A stretch of 64,000 bases of DNA from Natrialba swarupiae. Lineage in GTDB: Archaea; Halobacteriota; Halobacteria; Halobacteriales; Natrialbaceae. The DNA is taken from NCBI RefSeq assembly GCF_008245225.1, contig NZ_VTAW01000001.1, positions 248,001-312,000 on the forward strand, written 5' to 3'. Both the position numbers and the translations under genes were made by a program. Every line of letters starts with the position of its first letter. Within the stretch, counting starts at the first letter, position 1. Below, piece by piece: positions 28,340 to 33,335 of the stretch. Under the pieces are notes generated by a model. The model saw only the letters and a list, made by a program, of their open reading frames with translations. It was not told the DNA's origin and made no database searches.

Positions 28340-28434
28340 TCGATTTCACGTAGTCGGGTGCATTTGATAGGGCTTTCGTTTTGCCTTCCGCCGGTTCGAT
28401 ACGCTTTCACGCATCGCTCGAGTACGACCGTTCA

Positions 28435-29856
28435 ATGAGTGACGAGGATGCCGACCGCGACGATTCCACGAGCGAAGAAATCGCCGGGCACGACGACCCG
28501 CCGGACGATTCGGTCCAGGCCGTCGTCGGTCGGGTTCGCGACCGCGTCGACCCCGACGAGAGCGAACGCGAGCGTCTCGAGGCCGTCGCGGATCGCCTCC
28601 TCGAGCGAGCGGCGGCCGCGGCGACCGAGCGCTGTCCCGACGCCGACGTCTTACAGGCGGGCTCGTCCGCCCGCGGGACGTGGATCAGCGGCGACCGCGA
28701 CATCGATGTCTTCGTTCGGTTCCCGCCCGAACTCGACCGGGAAACGCTCGAGGCGTACGGACTCGAGGTCGGCCACGAAACCCTCCCGGACGGCCACGAG
28801 GAGTACGCCGAACACCCTTACGTCAAAGGCGAACTCGAGGGGTTCGACGTCGACATCGTCCCCTGTTTCCGACTCGACTCCGCGACCGAGATCCGATCGG
28901 CGGTCGACCGAACCCCCTTTCATACGCAGTATCTTCGAGAACAGCTCGACGACGAACTCGCAGCCGACACCCGGATGACGAAAGGGTTTCTGAAAGGGAT
29001 CGGCGTCTACGGAAGCGACCTCCGAACGCGGGGGTTCAGTGGCTACCTCACCGAACTCCTCGTCTGCGAATACGGCGGCTTTCGGCCGTTTCTCGAGGCC
29101 GTCCGTAACTGGCAGCCGCCGATCCGTCTCGACCCGGAAGACCACGGCCGGACCACCTTCGACGACCCGCTCGTCGTCATCGATCCCACCGATCCCGAGC
29201 GCAACGTCGCGGCTGTCTGTTCGGCCGAGAACGTCGCCCGTCTCCAACACTACGCGCGTGCGTTCCTCGATGATCCCGACCCCGAGTTCTTCGAGACCGA
29301 CGAACCGGAGCCACTGGCCGAATCCGAACTCCGGCGTCACCTCGAGCGACGCGACACGACGCCGGTCGCCGTTCGGTTCGACGCACCCGATCTCGTCGAG
29401 GACCAGCTCTATCCCCAACTTCGCAAGTCACTCGACGGGATCATCCAGGAACTCGACGGCCGGGGTTTCGACGTCCTGCGTGCGACGGCGTTCGCTAACA
29501 GCACCTGCGTCGTCTTCGCTGAACTCGCGGTCGACCAACGACCGGCCGTCGAACGTCACGAGGGGCCGCCAGTTCACGTCAAAAATCACTCACGAGAGTT
29601 CTACGACGCGTACGTCGACGACCCCGACGTGTACGGTCCGTTCCTCGATGGCGATCGGTACGTCGCCGAGCGCGGTCGGGAGTTTACGACCGCCCGTGCG
29701 TTTCTCGAGAGCGATCAGCTGTTCGACGTCGCCCTCGGGGCACACGTCGCGACGGCTCTCGAGGAGGGGTACGAGATCCTCGTCGGCGAGGACGTACACG
29801 CGTTGCTCCCCGAGTTCGGAGCCGAACTCCGTACGTACTTCGAACCGACGCCGTGA
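28435..29856 (+). CDS. cca: archaeal CCA-adding enzyme (class I tRNA nucleotidyltransferase)
   Basis: The product has 473 residues and adds CCA to tRNA 3' ends in the cytoplasm; none of the three tRNA genes in this window encodes CCA. The catalytic motif of the class I nucleotidyltransferase is QAGSSARGTWISGDRDIDVF (Gly-Ser then DxD) at about residues 76-95, with the third carboxylate in FDVDIVPCF. Later blocks TRMTKGFLKGIG, RGFSGYLTELL and the C-terminal arm match the archaeal family. An acidic N-terminal tail of about 30 residues is typical of haloarchaeal proteins. The ATG at 28435 is preferred over an upstream TTG. Confidence 0.92.
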   Translation: MSDEDADRDDSTSEEIAGHDDPPDDSVQAVVGRVRDRVDPDESERERLEAVADRLLERAAAAATERCPDADVLQAGSSARGTWISGDRDIDVFVRFPPELDRETLEAYGLEVGHETLPDGHEEYAEHPYVKGELEGFDVDIVPCFRLDSATEIRSAVDRTPFHTQYLREQLDDELAADTRMTKGFLKGIGVYGSDLRTRGFSGYLTELLVCEYGGFRPFLEAVRNWQPPIRLDPEDHGRTTFDDPLVVIDPTDPERNVAAVCSAENVARLQHYARAFLDDPDPEFFETDEPEPLAESELRRHLERRDTTPVAVRFDAPDLVEDQLYPQLRKSLDGIIQELDGRGFDVLRATAFANSTCVVFAELAVDQRPAVERHEGPPVHVKNHSREFYDAYVDDPDVYGPFLDGDRYVAERGREFTTARAFLESDQLFDVALGAHVATALEEGYEILVGEDVHALLPEFGAELRTYFEPTP

Positions 29857-29974: not shown

Positions 29975-30367
29975 TCACTCGAACCCGCTCGTGGGCGACG
30001 CCGTCCGTTCCCACACGCCCCGTTCTCGAAGCCCCAGGAGAAGCTGCGAAACGACGCTCAGTAACGGCAATTCGAGCAACGGACCGATCACCAGCGCCAG
30101 CGGAACGAGCGGTTCGTGCGGGAAGGCAACGACTGCGATCGCGAGCGCCGTCGGCGAGTTGCGCGACAGAATCGTACAGTTGAAACAGACGACTTCCTCG
30201 TAACTGAACGCGCCAAGGCGTCCGATCGCCAGCCCGAGAACGAAGTTGACGGCGTAGAAGACGACAACGGGGACGGCGAGCAGCGCTAGCACACCGGGGT
30301 TGGCGAGAACGACGCTCTCGAGCAAGGTTTCGAACGGCAGTGCAACGAGTTCGCCGGCGAATAAATT
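29975..30367 (-). pseudogene. C-terminal remnant of an arsenic-resistance (ACR3/BASS-like) transporter
   Basis: An open frame shows only the last part of a ten-helix transporter of the arsenical-resistance/bile-acid symporter superfamily: LFAGELVALPFETLLESVV, then YAVNFVLGLAIGRLGAF and SRNSPTALAIAVVAFP, followed by PLVPLALVIGPLLELPLLS. No start codon gives a normal protein; homology stops around 30367, 14 bp from the stop of the HDAC gene upstream. About two thirds of the gene are missing, so I call it a truncated pseudogene. A TTG at 30325 would produce 116 residues, probably non-functional. A complete, different ACR3 gene occurs at 47.2 kb. Confidence 0.7.
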
Positions 30368-30380
30368 GCAGCGGCTACTC

Positions 30381-31388
30381 TCACTCGTGTGCGTCTGCGA
30401 CGTCTTCGAGCATCGATTCGACGGCGTCGTTCGGATCCCCGTCCGGTTCGATCGGCTCTCGACCGTCGAACGTCTCGTGGACGATCGCGACGCTATCTGC
30501 GAGAACGTCGAGGCCGTACCCGCCCTCGAGGACGAACGACAGTGCGGCGTCGAGCTCCTCGGCGAGCGTTCGCAACCGATCGGTCATCAACGCGTACCCC
30601 TCCGTCGACAGCCGGATCCGCGAGATCGGATCGTGCCGGTGCGCGTCGAAGCCCGCGCTTACGATCACCAGATCGGGACCGAACGCCTCGAGCGCCGCGG
30701 AGACCGGTCCCTCGATCGCCGCAAGATAGCCGGGATCGCCCGTCCCGGCGGGCATCGGGAGGTTCATCGTCGTTCCCCGCCCGTCGCCCTCGCCGATCTC
30801 GTCGACATCGCCGGTACCGGGGTACAGACCCTGTTCGTGGAGTGACACGAAGTAGACGTCGTCGCGGTCGTAGAAGATGTCCTGGGTGCCGTTGCCGTGG
30901 TGGACGTCCCAGTCGATAATTGCAACTCGATCGACGTCGTGGACATCGTGATCGAGTGCGTGCTGTGCGGCGACTGCGGCGTTGTTCGCAAAGCAAAACC
31001 CCATCGCGTCGTCGGCGACGGCGTGGTGACCCGGCGGACGGCCCAGCGAGAACGGCATCTTCCGGCCGTCGTCACCCTCGAGTGCCGCCTCGACCGCCCA
31101 GCAGGCCAGCCCCGAACTGTGACGGATCGCGTCCCACGTCCCTTCGCTTGCCGTCGTGTCGGGATCCCAGTTGCCGCCGCCGTCGGCACAGAACTCCTCG
31201 ACGGACTCGACGTACGCCCGGTCGTGAACTGCTGCGAGTTCGTCGATATCGCAGGGTTCGGCATCGACGTACTCGACGCCGTGTTTTCGTTTCAGTCGTT
31301 CCCGGATGGCCCGCAGCCGGTCGGCCGTCTCGGGGTGGCGTGGACCAGGATCGTGCCCGAGACAGACGTCGCTGTAGCCAAATTGCAT
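30381..31388 (-). CDS. hdaI: histone-deacetylase-family (HDAC class II-like) deacetylase
   Basis: The product is a 335-residue zinc-dependent deacetylase of the HDAC/acetoin-utilisation superfamily. Active-site blocks: GRPPGHHAVADDAMGFCFAN (two adjacent His), AIIDWDVHHGNGTQDIFY (Asp and His metal ligands), VSAGFDAHRHDP (second Asp) and LEGGYGLDVLADSV (catalytic Tyr). In archaea these enzymes act on acetyl-lysine or on small amides such as polyamines. The start codon is 1 bp from the stop of the doublet-histone gene, so both proteins are made from one message; this suggests a chromatin-related role. ATG 31388 (MQFGYSDVCLGH) is the conserved family start. Confidence 0.92.
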   Translation of the reverse strand: MQFGYSDVCLGHDPGPRHPETADRLRAIRERLKRKHGVEYVDAEPCDIDELAAVHDRAYVESVEEFCADGGGNWDPDTTASEGTWDAIRHSSGLACWAVEAALEGDDGRKMPFSLGRPPGHHAVADDAMGFCFANNAAVAAQHALDHDVHDVDRVAIIDWDVHHGNGTQDIFYDRDDVYFVSLHEQGLYPGTGDVDEIGEGDGRGTTMNLPMPAGTGDPGYLAAIEGPVSAALEAFGPDLVIVSAGFDAHRHDPISRIRLSTEGYALMTDRLRTLAEELDAALSFVLEGGYGLDVLADSVAIVHETFDGREPIEPDGDPNDAVESMLEDVADAHE

Positions 31389-31389
31389 C

Positions 31390-31821
31390 TCACTCGAACA
31401 GCGAGAAGTACGTCTCGATGTCGTCGTCGATGATCGTTCGCCGATCGGCGTGTCGCGCGAGGATCGCCGCCGCCCGTGCGACGTTGTCGGCATAATCCTC
31501 GAGAATGTCGGCGAGTGCGATCCGTGCGTCCATCGAGACCCGGTACCGGTCGTCGATCTCCAGTCTGGCGATGCGGTCGACCGGCGCGACCGGCAACTCG
31601 AGGTCGTCCTTGTCGACGACCGTATCGACCTCGAAGTCCGAGGCCATCAGCGTCTTCCGTCCGTCCGCAGTCGCCCGTTCGGCGGCGTCGATTGCGAGCG
31701 CGCTTCCGTGCTCCTGTATCCGCGTTGCGAGTTCCCTGGAGGCGTCGGCGCTCACCCGGAGGTCGTCCGCGTTCCGCCTGATGATCGTATCCACCGGCGC
31801 GAACGGGAGTTCGACGTTCAT
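31390..31821 (-). CDS. hstA: doublet archaeal histone (two fused histone folds)
   Basis: The product has 143 residues and consists of two histone folds in tandem, folding as an internal dimer. Fold one covers residues 1-70 (FAPVDTIIRRNADDLRVSA, RKTLMASDFEV). Fold two covers residues 74-143 (VAPVDRIARLEIDDRYRVS, ending DDDIETYFSLFE). It should bind DNA and shape chromatin or act as a global regulator in haloarchaea, where histone levels are low. The protein is acidic and has only two lysines (Lys56 and Lys71), unlike eukaryotic histone tails. It is followed at 1 bp by the HDAC gene and preceded by the rpa2 gene at 65 bp. Confidence 0.93.
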   Translation of the reverse strand: MNVELPFAPVDTIIRRNADDLRVSADASRELATRIQEHGSALAIDAAERATADGRKTLMASDFEVDTVVDKDDLELPVAPVDRIARLEIDDRYRVSMDARIALADILEDYADNVARAAAILARHADRRTIIDDDIETYFSLFE

Positions 31822-31886
31822 ACCTTGATAGGTGAATCTAACTCCCTTAACGCTTTTCCTAGCGTTCGATGAGGATCCTCGACCGC

Positions 31887-33335
31887 TCAGAAGACGTCAC
31901 TGGCCTCGAGGCGTCCGTCTGAGACGACACCTCGTACCGTGATCTCTTCGCCGAGGCCCACGTCGGTATCCGTCTCGACGCTCATCGTCGTCTCGCCGTC
32001 GTCGAGGACGACTGGGTCCCCGGCCTGGACGACGACGCCGGTAAATTCGACTTCTTCGCCGTCCGCCGCTCCGTCTGTCTGCGCTTGCTCGGAAGGCGTT
32101 TCCGCGACGTCGTCCGAGACGCCGGTTTCCCCACCGTCGTCGGAGCCGGTCTCGCTCCCATCGTCTGCAAACGCTGACAGCCCCTCGCTTGTGGAACTCT
32201 CTCGATCGTCTGTGTCCGCCCCGGTGTCGGAATCGGTGTCGAGCACCGTAATCGTCGACTGCCAGCCGGCCGATGCCTCGAGGTCGTCCTGCCAGCCGTC
32301 CTGAATCTCGACGTCGCCGAGTGCGACCTCGTCGCCGGGGCCGATATCGATGTCTGCCTTTTGGCCCCAGAGTGCGACGCGAATATCGCCGGTCGCGTCC
32401 TGAACGCGAATGTTGCGAACCTGTCCCTCGGAGCCGTCGTCCCGATCGAAGGTACGTTTCGGATCCGCCGAACGGACGACTCCCGCGAGGTCGACCGTCT
32501 GGCCGATCTCGACGTCCTCGATCGGCGTACTCTCCGGAACGTACTCGATGTCCTCGTCGACGTCTTCGATCGCACCCCGGTTCCCGACGTGCACCTCGAG
32601 GCTTCCATCTCGTTCGCGAACGTAGCCGTCGATCACCTCGATCGTCGTCCCAGGGTCGATCTCCTCGGCGAGATCGGCCCGCTCGTCCCAGAGGGTGACG
32701 CGTACGCGGCCAGTCGAGTCGCCGACGACGAGGTTCGAGACCTTTCCTTCGGTGCCGTCGTCGCGGTCGAACGTTCGGACGCTGTCGGTATCGAGGACGA
32801 GTCCGACGAGGTTGACGTTCGAGAGGCCAAGCGAGAGGCTCTCGACCGTGTGCGTATCGGAGACCTGCACCTCGATCTCCGTATCGTCGTCGGGTTCGAC
32901 GTCGTCGACGCTCACCTCGACGCCCGAAAAGCCCTCCTTGGGTCGGCCCTTGATTCGGAGCACCTGTCCCTCCTCGAGTTCTTCGGTGGCTGCTTCGGCG
33001 TGGTCGTCCCAGAACGCCGCCCGGACGGAGCCGGTCTCGTCTGCGACCTCGACGTTGGCCACCCGGCCGTCCTCGTCCTCGCCGTCCCGTTCGAAGGTGC
33101 GAACCTCGCCGATGCTCACCACCTTGGCGACGAACTTCGCCTCTTCCATGCCGGGCTCGATGTCGGCGATGCCGCCGACCTCGCTTTCGCCGACTTCGTG
33201 AGCGACGAGCATCGCCGCCGTCTCCTCGTCCGCGAGTCCACCCATCTGCTCGACTTTCGCCTCGACGGCTTCGCGAAACTCCTCGAGAGAAACGTCGGCC
33301 TCGAGATCCTCGTAGACGCCCTCGATGTCGCTCAT
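31887..33335 (-). CDS. rpa2: replication protein A homologue Rpa2, multiple OB folds
   Basis: The product has 482 residues and is the main single-stranded DNA-binding protein type of haloarchaea (Rpa2 group), acting in replication and repair. After an N-terminal helical region (residues 1-70) there are three clear OB folds with near-repeated cores: VVSIGEVRTFERD...GRVANVEVADETGSV, VLDTDSVRTFDRD...GKVSNLVVGDSTGRV and VVRSADPKRTFDRD...GQVRNIRVQDATGDI. A very acidic Asp/Thr/Ser linker precedes a short C-terminal OB-like domain (EFTGVVVQAGDPVVLDDG). No zinc finger is present, which separates it from Rpa3. ATG 33335 begins the conserved protein. Confidence 0.93.
   Translation of the reverse strand: MSDIEGVYEDLEADVSLEEFREAVEAKVEQMGGLADEETAAMLVAHEVGESEVGGIADIEPGMEEAKFVAKVVSIGEVRTFERDGEDEDGRVANVEVADETGSVRAAFWDDHAEAATEELEEGQVLRIKGRPKEGFSGVEVSVDDVEPDDDTEIEVQVSDTHTVESLSLGLSNVNLVGLVLDTDSVRTFDRDDGTEGKVSNLVVGDSTGRVRVTLWDERADLAEEIDPGTTIEVIDGYVRERDGSLEVHVGNRGAIEDVDEDIEYVPESTPIEDVEIGQTVDLAGVVRSADPKRTFDRDDGSEGQVRNIRVQDATGDIRVALWGQKADIDIGPGDEVALGDVEIQDGWQDDLEASAGWQSTITVLDTDSDTGADTDDRESSTSEGLSAFADDGSETGSDDGGETGVSDDVAETPSEQAQTDGAADGEEVEFTGVVVQAGDPVVLDDGETTMSVETDTDVGLGEEITVRGVVSDGRLEASDVF

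Follow-up and report, generated by a model that had tools for sequence, protein, structure and literature searches.

The closest described relative of the locus considered here is the hstA-hdaI pair of Haloferax volcanii (HVO_0520 / HVO_0522), in which a doublet histone is followed, as here, by a class-II-type histone deacetylase (HDAC); the two genes overlap and are cotranscribed (PMC2946573). Passages of two papers describe hdaI as essential in that organism (PMC3017900, PMC6267482), a passage of a third reports that hstA deletion mutants are viable but grow less well (PMC10128011), and the main text of a Haloferax acetylome study does not name the histone among the acetylated proteins (PMC10294847). 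The acidic doublet histones of the HpyA/HstA type, or ‘cluster 3’, have a median length of 143 amino acids and a median pI of 4.7 (PMC13260811); excerpts of the published work report binding to DNA in vivo for both HpyA and HstA. For the regulation of haloarchaeal histones by acetylation, a pair of this kind is a strong natural candidate.

Here, we describe the corresponding genes in a window of 64,000 nucleotides from Natrialba swarupiae (contig NZ_VTAW01000001.1, positions 248,001 to 312,000). The pair is a well-conserved example of a known one, for which our survey numbers are new: class-wide figures were not found in open-licence papers; subscription papers may report them.

Results

Architecture of the locus

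The histone and HDAC genes are adjacent on the same strand, in that order, and are separated by a single base (Table 1), just as a preliminary description of the window had it. The HDAC open frame as listed, to 31493, merely runs upstream over the histone; the start given in Table 1 fits the alignment to relatives.

Table 1. Features of the histone-HDAC locus (window coordinates)
Feature	Position	Strand	Remarks
CCA tRNA nucleotidyltransferase (cca)	28381..29856	+	TIGR03671; convergent with HDAC
ACR3-type arsenite transporter fragment, C-terminal part	29975-30325	-	TIGR00832, 236-323 of 327; in the cca-HDAC interval
Zn-dependent HDAC-family deacetylase (HdaI type, predicted), 335 aa	30381..31388	-	PF00850; ATG at 31388-31386, end at 30381
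Intergenic base, histone stop to HDAC start	31389	-	one-base gap
Acidic doublet histone (HstA/HpyA type), 143 aa, pI 4.4	31390..31821	-	PF00808 in two stretches; ATG at 31821, TGA at 31392-31390
K71 codon (AAG)	31609..31611	-	linker between two histone folds
K56 codon (AAG)	31654..31656	-	R55-K56-T57 motif; loop between helices 25-52 and 60-63 (AlphaFold2 model)
BRE/TATA-like promoter motif GNAAANNNTTA	31846..31858	-	-37 to -25 of histone ATG
Single-stranded DNA-binding protein (RPA, PRK07211)	31887..33335	-	NF005551, E 1.8e-238; start at 33335

Both stretches of the histone are matched by Pfam PF00808 (E 1.3e-23), and the protein also matches the NCBIfam archaeal histone model; NCBIfam yields a model for the histone only and none for the HDAC. 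An AlphaFold2 model (pLDDT 94.4, from an alignment of 26) contains two histone folds, its best match in the PDB being the doublet histone of Methanopyrus (1F1E). With two folds in one chain, a length of 143 amino acids and a pI of 4.4, the protein is an acidic doublet histone, and we see no notable difference from the members of cluster 3: as there, the two folds are fused and the gene is the sole histone-fold (PF00808) gene found in its genome, here by profile search. The median pI of 77 homologues is 4.6, and a histone is present in 292/292 genomes drawn from the class Halobacteria.

Conservation of the gene pair

We surveyed 77 genomes (76 genera), reading approximately 5 kb to each side of the histone and letting a script choose as start codon the one nearest to the aligned start. 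In 73 of the 77, the distance from the stop codon of the histone to the HDAC start is -4 to +16 bp; in one genome (G131) it lies at +605 bp, and in three (G001, G021 and G217) no HDAC stands beside the histone. A second set, of 80 named loci, comprises 78 in which the genes are adjacent and two (Halorussus) with an estimated gap of 138-145 bp; these loci had been ordered by how closely they resemble the query alignment, overlap the first set (e.g. one Haloplanus and one Haloferax locus), and are not independent of it. Nine Haloferax loci have histone then HDAC with a 1-base overlap, in agreement with the similar Haloferax pair that the preliminary description had mentioned; the gene-order survey it proposed likewise bears out the tight pairing.

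The conservation extends to either side of the pair, with RPA upstream on the same strand in 72/77 and cca in 64/77 loci. Counted over the same 76 loci, RPA is found in 72, HDAC in 73 and cca in 63, against 5, 1, 0 and 11 for four other window genes (25.9-36.3 kb) that served as a control; a block of four genes (rpa, histone, hdaI, cca) is conserved. The ACR3 fragment that lies within this block in Natrialba swarupiae occurs in 0/76 related loci, and is therefore probably the remnant of an insertion.

In 61/77 genomes the histone ATG is preceded, at a distance of 36-38 nt, by the promoter-like motif GNAAANNNTTA, compared with a frequency of 0.0029 (0.29%) in random 45-mers from the same loci, and precedes 0/74 HDAC starts and 0/72 RPA starts. 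Several of the 16 genomes that miss it have near variants; none was seen in G217 and G021, both of which are without a linked HDAC. We read the motif as a haloarchaeal BRE/TATA element, which at such a distance from the ATG gives a leaderless transcript. Since the motif precedes the histone and has no counterpart before HDAC or RPA, histone and HDAC look like a leaderless transcript of their own, separate from RPA; cotranscription in Natrialba swarupiae would follow from this arrangement of the sequence. RPA and histone stand well apart, at a distance that varies from 38 to 1378 bp (72 genomes), and RPA is probably a conserved neighbour with a separate transcript, from which read-through is possible. 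Of the ancestral rpa-histone-hdaI unit suggested in the preliminary description, the histone-HDAC pair is probably old (73/77), while the spacing and the histone’s own promoter-like motif speak against including RPA; a single operon containing RPA was dropped as the simplest reading.

Beyond the class, HDAC and cca stand tail-to-tail in 13/26 loci from eight Halobacteriota families (L167-L172, L184, L185, L187, L190-L192, L194), the orthology of these outgroup HDACs resting on the shared cca neighbour. Among the matches listed, five of the 13 genomes (three families) have a single histone encoded on the HDAC strand some 2-4.6 kb further upstream, separated from it by other genes, and no tight histone-HDAC pair was seen outside Halobacteria in coordinate lists inspected by eye, a procedure by which a rare case may be missed. 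We infer that the tight pair was already present in the common ancestor of most Halobacteria, if not earlier. As neighbour of HDAC, cca looks older than the histone: the HDAC-cca arrangement would be the older neighbourhood, the tight histone link having probably arisen in or before that ancestor. That outgroup HDACs adjoin cca and have no closely spaced histone gene suggests that the enzyme’s older role was independent of the histone.

Such a history also accommodates a neutral or expression-driven synteny, in which histone and HDAC merely share one promoter within an old block and have no functional link; what has been kept is the whole four-gene block, beyond the pair, and HDAC and cca are convergent in half of the outgroup loci with no obvious function in common. 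Against this, the histone-HDAC spacing, the tightest measured within the block, is far tighter and steadier than that between rpa and histone, as expected under selection for coupling, and we judge a purely neutral origin of the pair to be unlikely.

Histone lysines

K56 and K71 are the only lysines in the 143-residue translation, and the preliminary description places both correctly, K71 in the linker and K56 within the segment RKT..ASDFE. A count of two is nothing out of the ordinary: window proteins average 1.58% lysine (46 putative proteins, a rough set whose open reading frames were picked by acidity), giving 2.26 expected in 143 amino acids and P(2 or fewer)=0.61. The low count equals the average of the window’s proteins and was dropped as a signal; among the 77 histones the number of lysines runs from 1 to 7, the commonest being 3. 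K56 and K71 as the matched pair of targets that had been proposed likewise find no support. K71 is weakly conserved (K in 37/77, R in 26/77), and was dropped as a general target, and in the histones of the nine Haloferax loci K56 is accompanied by K120 rather than K71; only K56 is constant, being lysine in 77/77 genus-level homologues and the only lysine of the histone in 17/77. Ten alignment columns are basic in >=95% of rows, nine of them arginine and K56 the only lysine, with the fold-2 counterpart of K56 (R128) being arginine in 76/77; the alignment thus indicates a position at which lysine is kept where arginine is the rule. An argument from two lysines therefore carries little weight; what can be put to the test is K56.

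In the 80 named loci, which overlap the 77-genome set, an aligned pass gives RKT in 80/80, and a motif expression 79 RKT and one RRT, the odd one being taken as a parsing slip. The motif is also usual outside the class, with RKT in 32/34 single histones from other Halobacteriota (36 histone loci, L154 and L160 being left out); in the remaining two genomes (L156, L175), each with its single histone 2-5 kb upstream of HDAC, the loop reads RRT. Within the class, K56 is not confined to genomes that keep the HDAC, being retained in all three surveyed genera without a linked one (L125, L129, L130). Since RKT is usual in the histones of relatives, and K56 is kept without a linked HDAC, the constancy of K56 needs no deacetylase; we dropped it as proof of acetylation, RKT being general in archaeal histones. 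A role in DNA contact explains this constancy without acetylation. According to a passage of PMC10899632, substitutions in the RKT loop of Thermococcus HTkA alter DNA affinity, T55L lowering and G52K raising it (T55 being, on our reading of the numbering, the T of RKT), and the loop corresponds to H4K77 and H4K79, which are acetylated in eukaryotes, where acetylation eases the unwrapping of DNA.

The three losses of the linked HDAC are of two kinds. In G001 (L130) the order of RPA, histone and cca is kept, but histone and cca have no HDAC between them; in G021 (L129) and G217 (L125) the histone lies just downstream of, and overlaps, a universal stress protein gene. These histone/universal stress protein overlaps belong to two families (L125:4588-5438, L129:4974-5848). 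Among the matches listed, the same three genomes and G007 (L290; same genus as G001) have only a distant HDAC-family gene. At L131-L133 the distant gene overlaps the gene upstream of it, which is a hydantoinase/oxoprolinase relative by Pfam at L132 and L133 and looks alike at L131; the two are perhaps an amide-degrading pair. Sir2 was found in 0/4 of these genomes as against 24/38 other genomes tested (Fisher P 0.027, uncorrected for kinship), making a natural loss of lysine deacetylation possible in the four. Some haloarchaea, then, lack both HdaI and Sir2 and yet have a histone with K56 (K56 having been read in G001, G021 and G217).

All of this bears on whether the pair is a dedicated histone switch, in which HdaI mainly deacetylates K56 of HstA and owes its essentiality to the harm done by acetylated histone. 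The nearly class-wide tight coupling speaks for it, as do the standing of K56 as the only invariant lysine (and sole lysine in a number of the histones) and the arginine at its fold-2 equivalent, lysine having been kept over arginine at one place only. K56 is, however, kept in genomes without a linked HDAC and is a lysine in archaeal histones generally; HDACs elsewhere lack a tight histone neighbour, among the matches listed; and hstA is dispensable in Haloferax, as the passage cited above has it (PMC10128011). We regard such a switch as improbable. Its one-lysine form, in which the Halobacteria histone has lost every conserved lysine but K56, in the loop corresponding to acetylated H4K79, the co-made HDAC keeps K56 bare and HdaI is essential only because acetylated histone is toxic, strikes us as decidedly doubtful.

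The HDAC-family enzyme

The enzyme covers positions 1-295 of the 298 of PF00850 (E 2.2e-88), i.e. the full-length domain, and has the active-site residues H121, H122, D161, H163, D248 and Y291, all six of which are present in 74/74 histone-linked HDACs; from the HDAC family we take these to be the His pair, the Asp-His-Asp zinc ligands and the catalytic Tyr. Among solved structures, HDAC6 and HDAH come closest to it; polyamine enzymes score lower. The gatekeeper place is Ile in 74/74 linked HDACs and Leu in HDAC6 domain 2; in the polyamine enzyme HDAC10 it is Glu. In a tree of 70 sequences (29 of the 74 linked HDACs and 41 others; quick method, midpoint root) the linked HDACs form one group (SH-aLRT 87), second HDAC copies of Halobacteria and the HDACs of genomes in which HDAC has been replaced falling on other branches.

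The genome’s second PF00850 gene lies on another contig (L134:4165-6907; G000 contig C37), divergent from a class-III aminotransferase gene, and is perhaps an acetylpolyamine amidohydrolase; given its contig, its neighbour and its different tree branch, it was set aside as a competitor for the histone. Beyond the aminotransferase, genes resembling those of ABC transporters can be seen by eye.

That the substrates of the linked enzyme are not proteins but small molecules, such as acetylpolyamines or related amides, we consider very improbable: PF00850 does include acetylpolyamine amidohydrolases, and other HDAC-family proteins of these genomes adjoin hydantoinase-type or aminotransferase genes, but those copies sit on other branches, the nearest solved relatives are HDAC6 and HDAH, and the gatekeeper is Ile rather than Glu.

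Discussion

The reading we favour, and hold to be reasonably probable, is that HdaI deacetylates protein lysines generally and has one or more essential substrates other than the histone, the histone being at most one client, via K56. Since Haloferax can do without hstA but not without hdaI, serving the histone cannot by itself be what makes HdaI essential, unless the histone becomes toxic when acetylated.

On this general-deacetylase reading, a short leaderless transcript would make a low-lysine, DNA-binding doublet histone together with a class-II-like Zn deacetylase, the latter by tight or overlapping translation after the histone, such that HdaI would be produced together with a chromatin regulator. 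Once K56 was acetylated, the RKT loop, which faces the DNA, would have one positive charge fewer and bind more loosely, and HdaI would restore the charge by deacetylation. Both the deacetylase activity and its action on the histone are what we infer from the genes; the pairing and the invariance of K56 are no demonstration that the histone is among the enzyme’s substrates. As judged from the alignment, K56 is the one credible histone site; that it is a real substrate remains putative, and we hold it tentatively, with rather less than even confidence.

Our survey narrows the matter to a single residue, K56 being the only histone lysine common to all 77 genomes. A clean answer would show if the deacetylation of histones is older than the eukaryotes, or if the HDACs of archaea have other proteins as their substrates.

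Set beside known systems, the locus departs from the nine Haloferax loci in details only: a 1-bp gap in place of a 1-bp overlap, and K71 in place of K120 as second lysine. With HDAC6 (5g0h) and bacterial HDAH (5g0x) the enzyme has in common the Zn ligands, the His pair, the Tyr and the PPGHHA and DWDVHHGNGTQ motifs, whereas it is single-domain, archaeal, very acidic (pI 4.3) and linked to a histone gene. The Sir2-Alba system of Sulfolobus, as presented in passages of PMC10294847 and PMC6267482, likewise combines a deacetylase with an archaeal chromatin protein; there, however, the enzyme is NAD-dependent, the chromatin protein is unrelated and the action has been demonstrated, whereas here it is putative.
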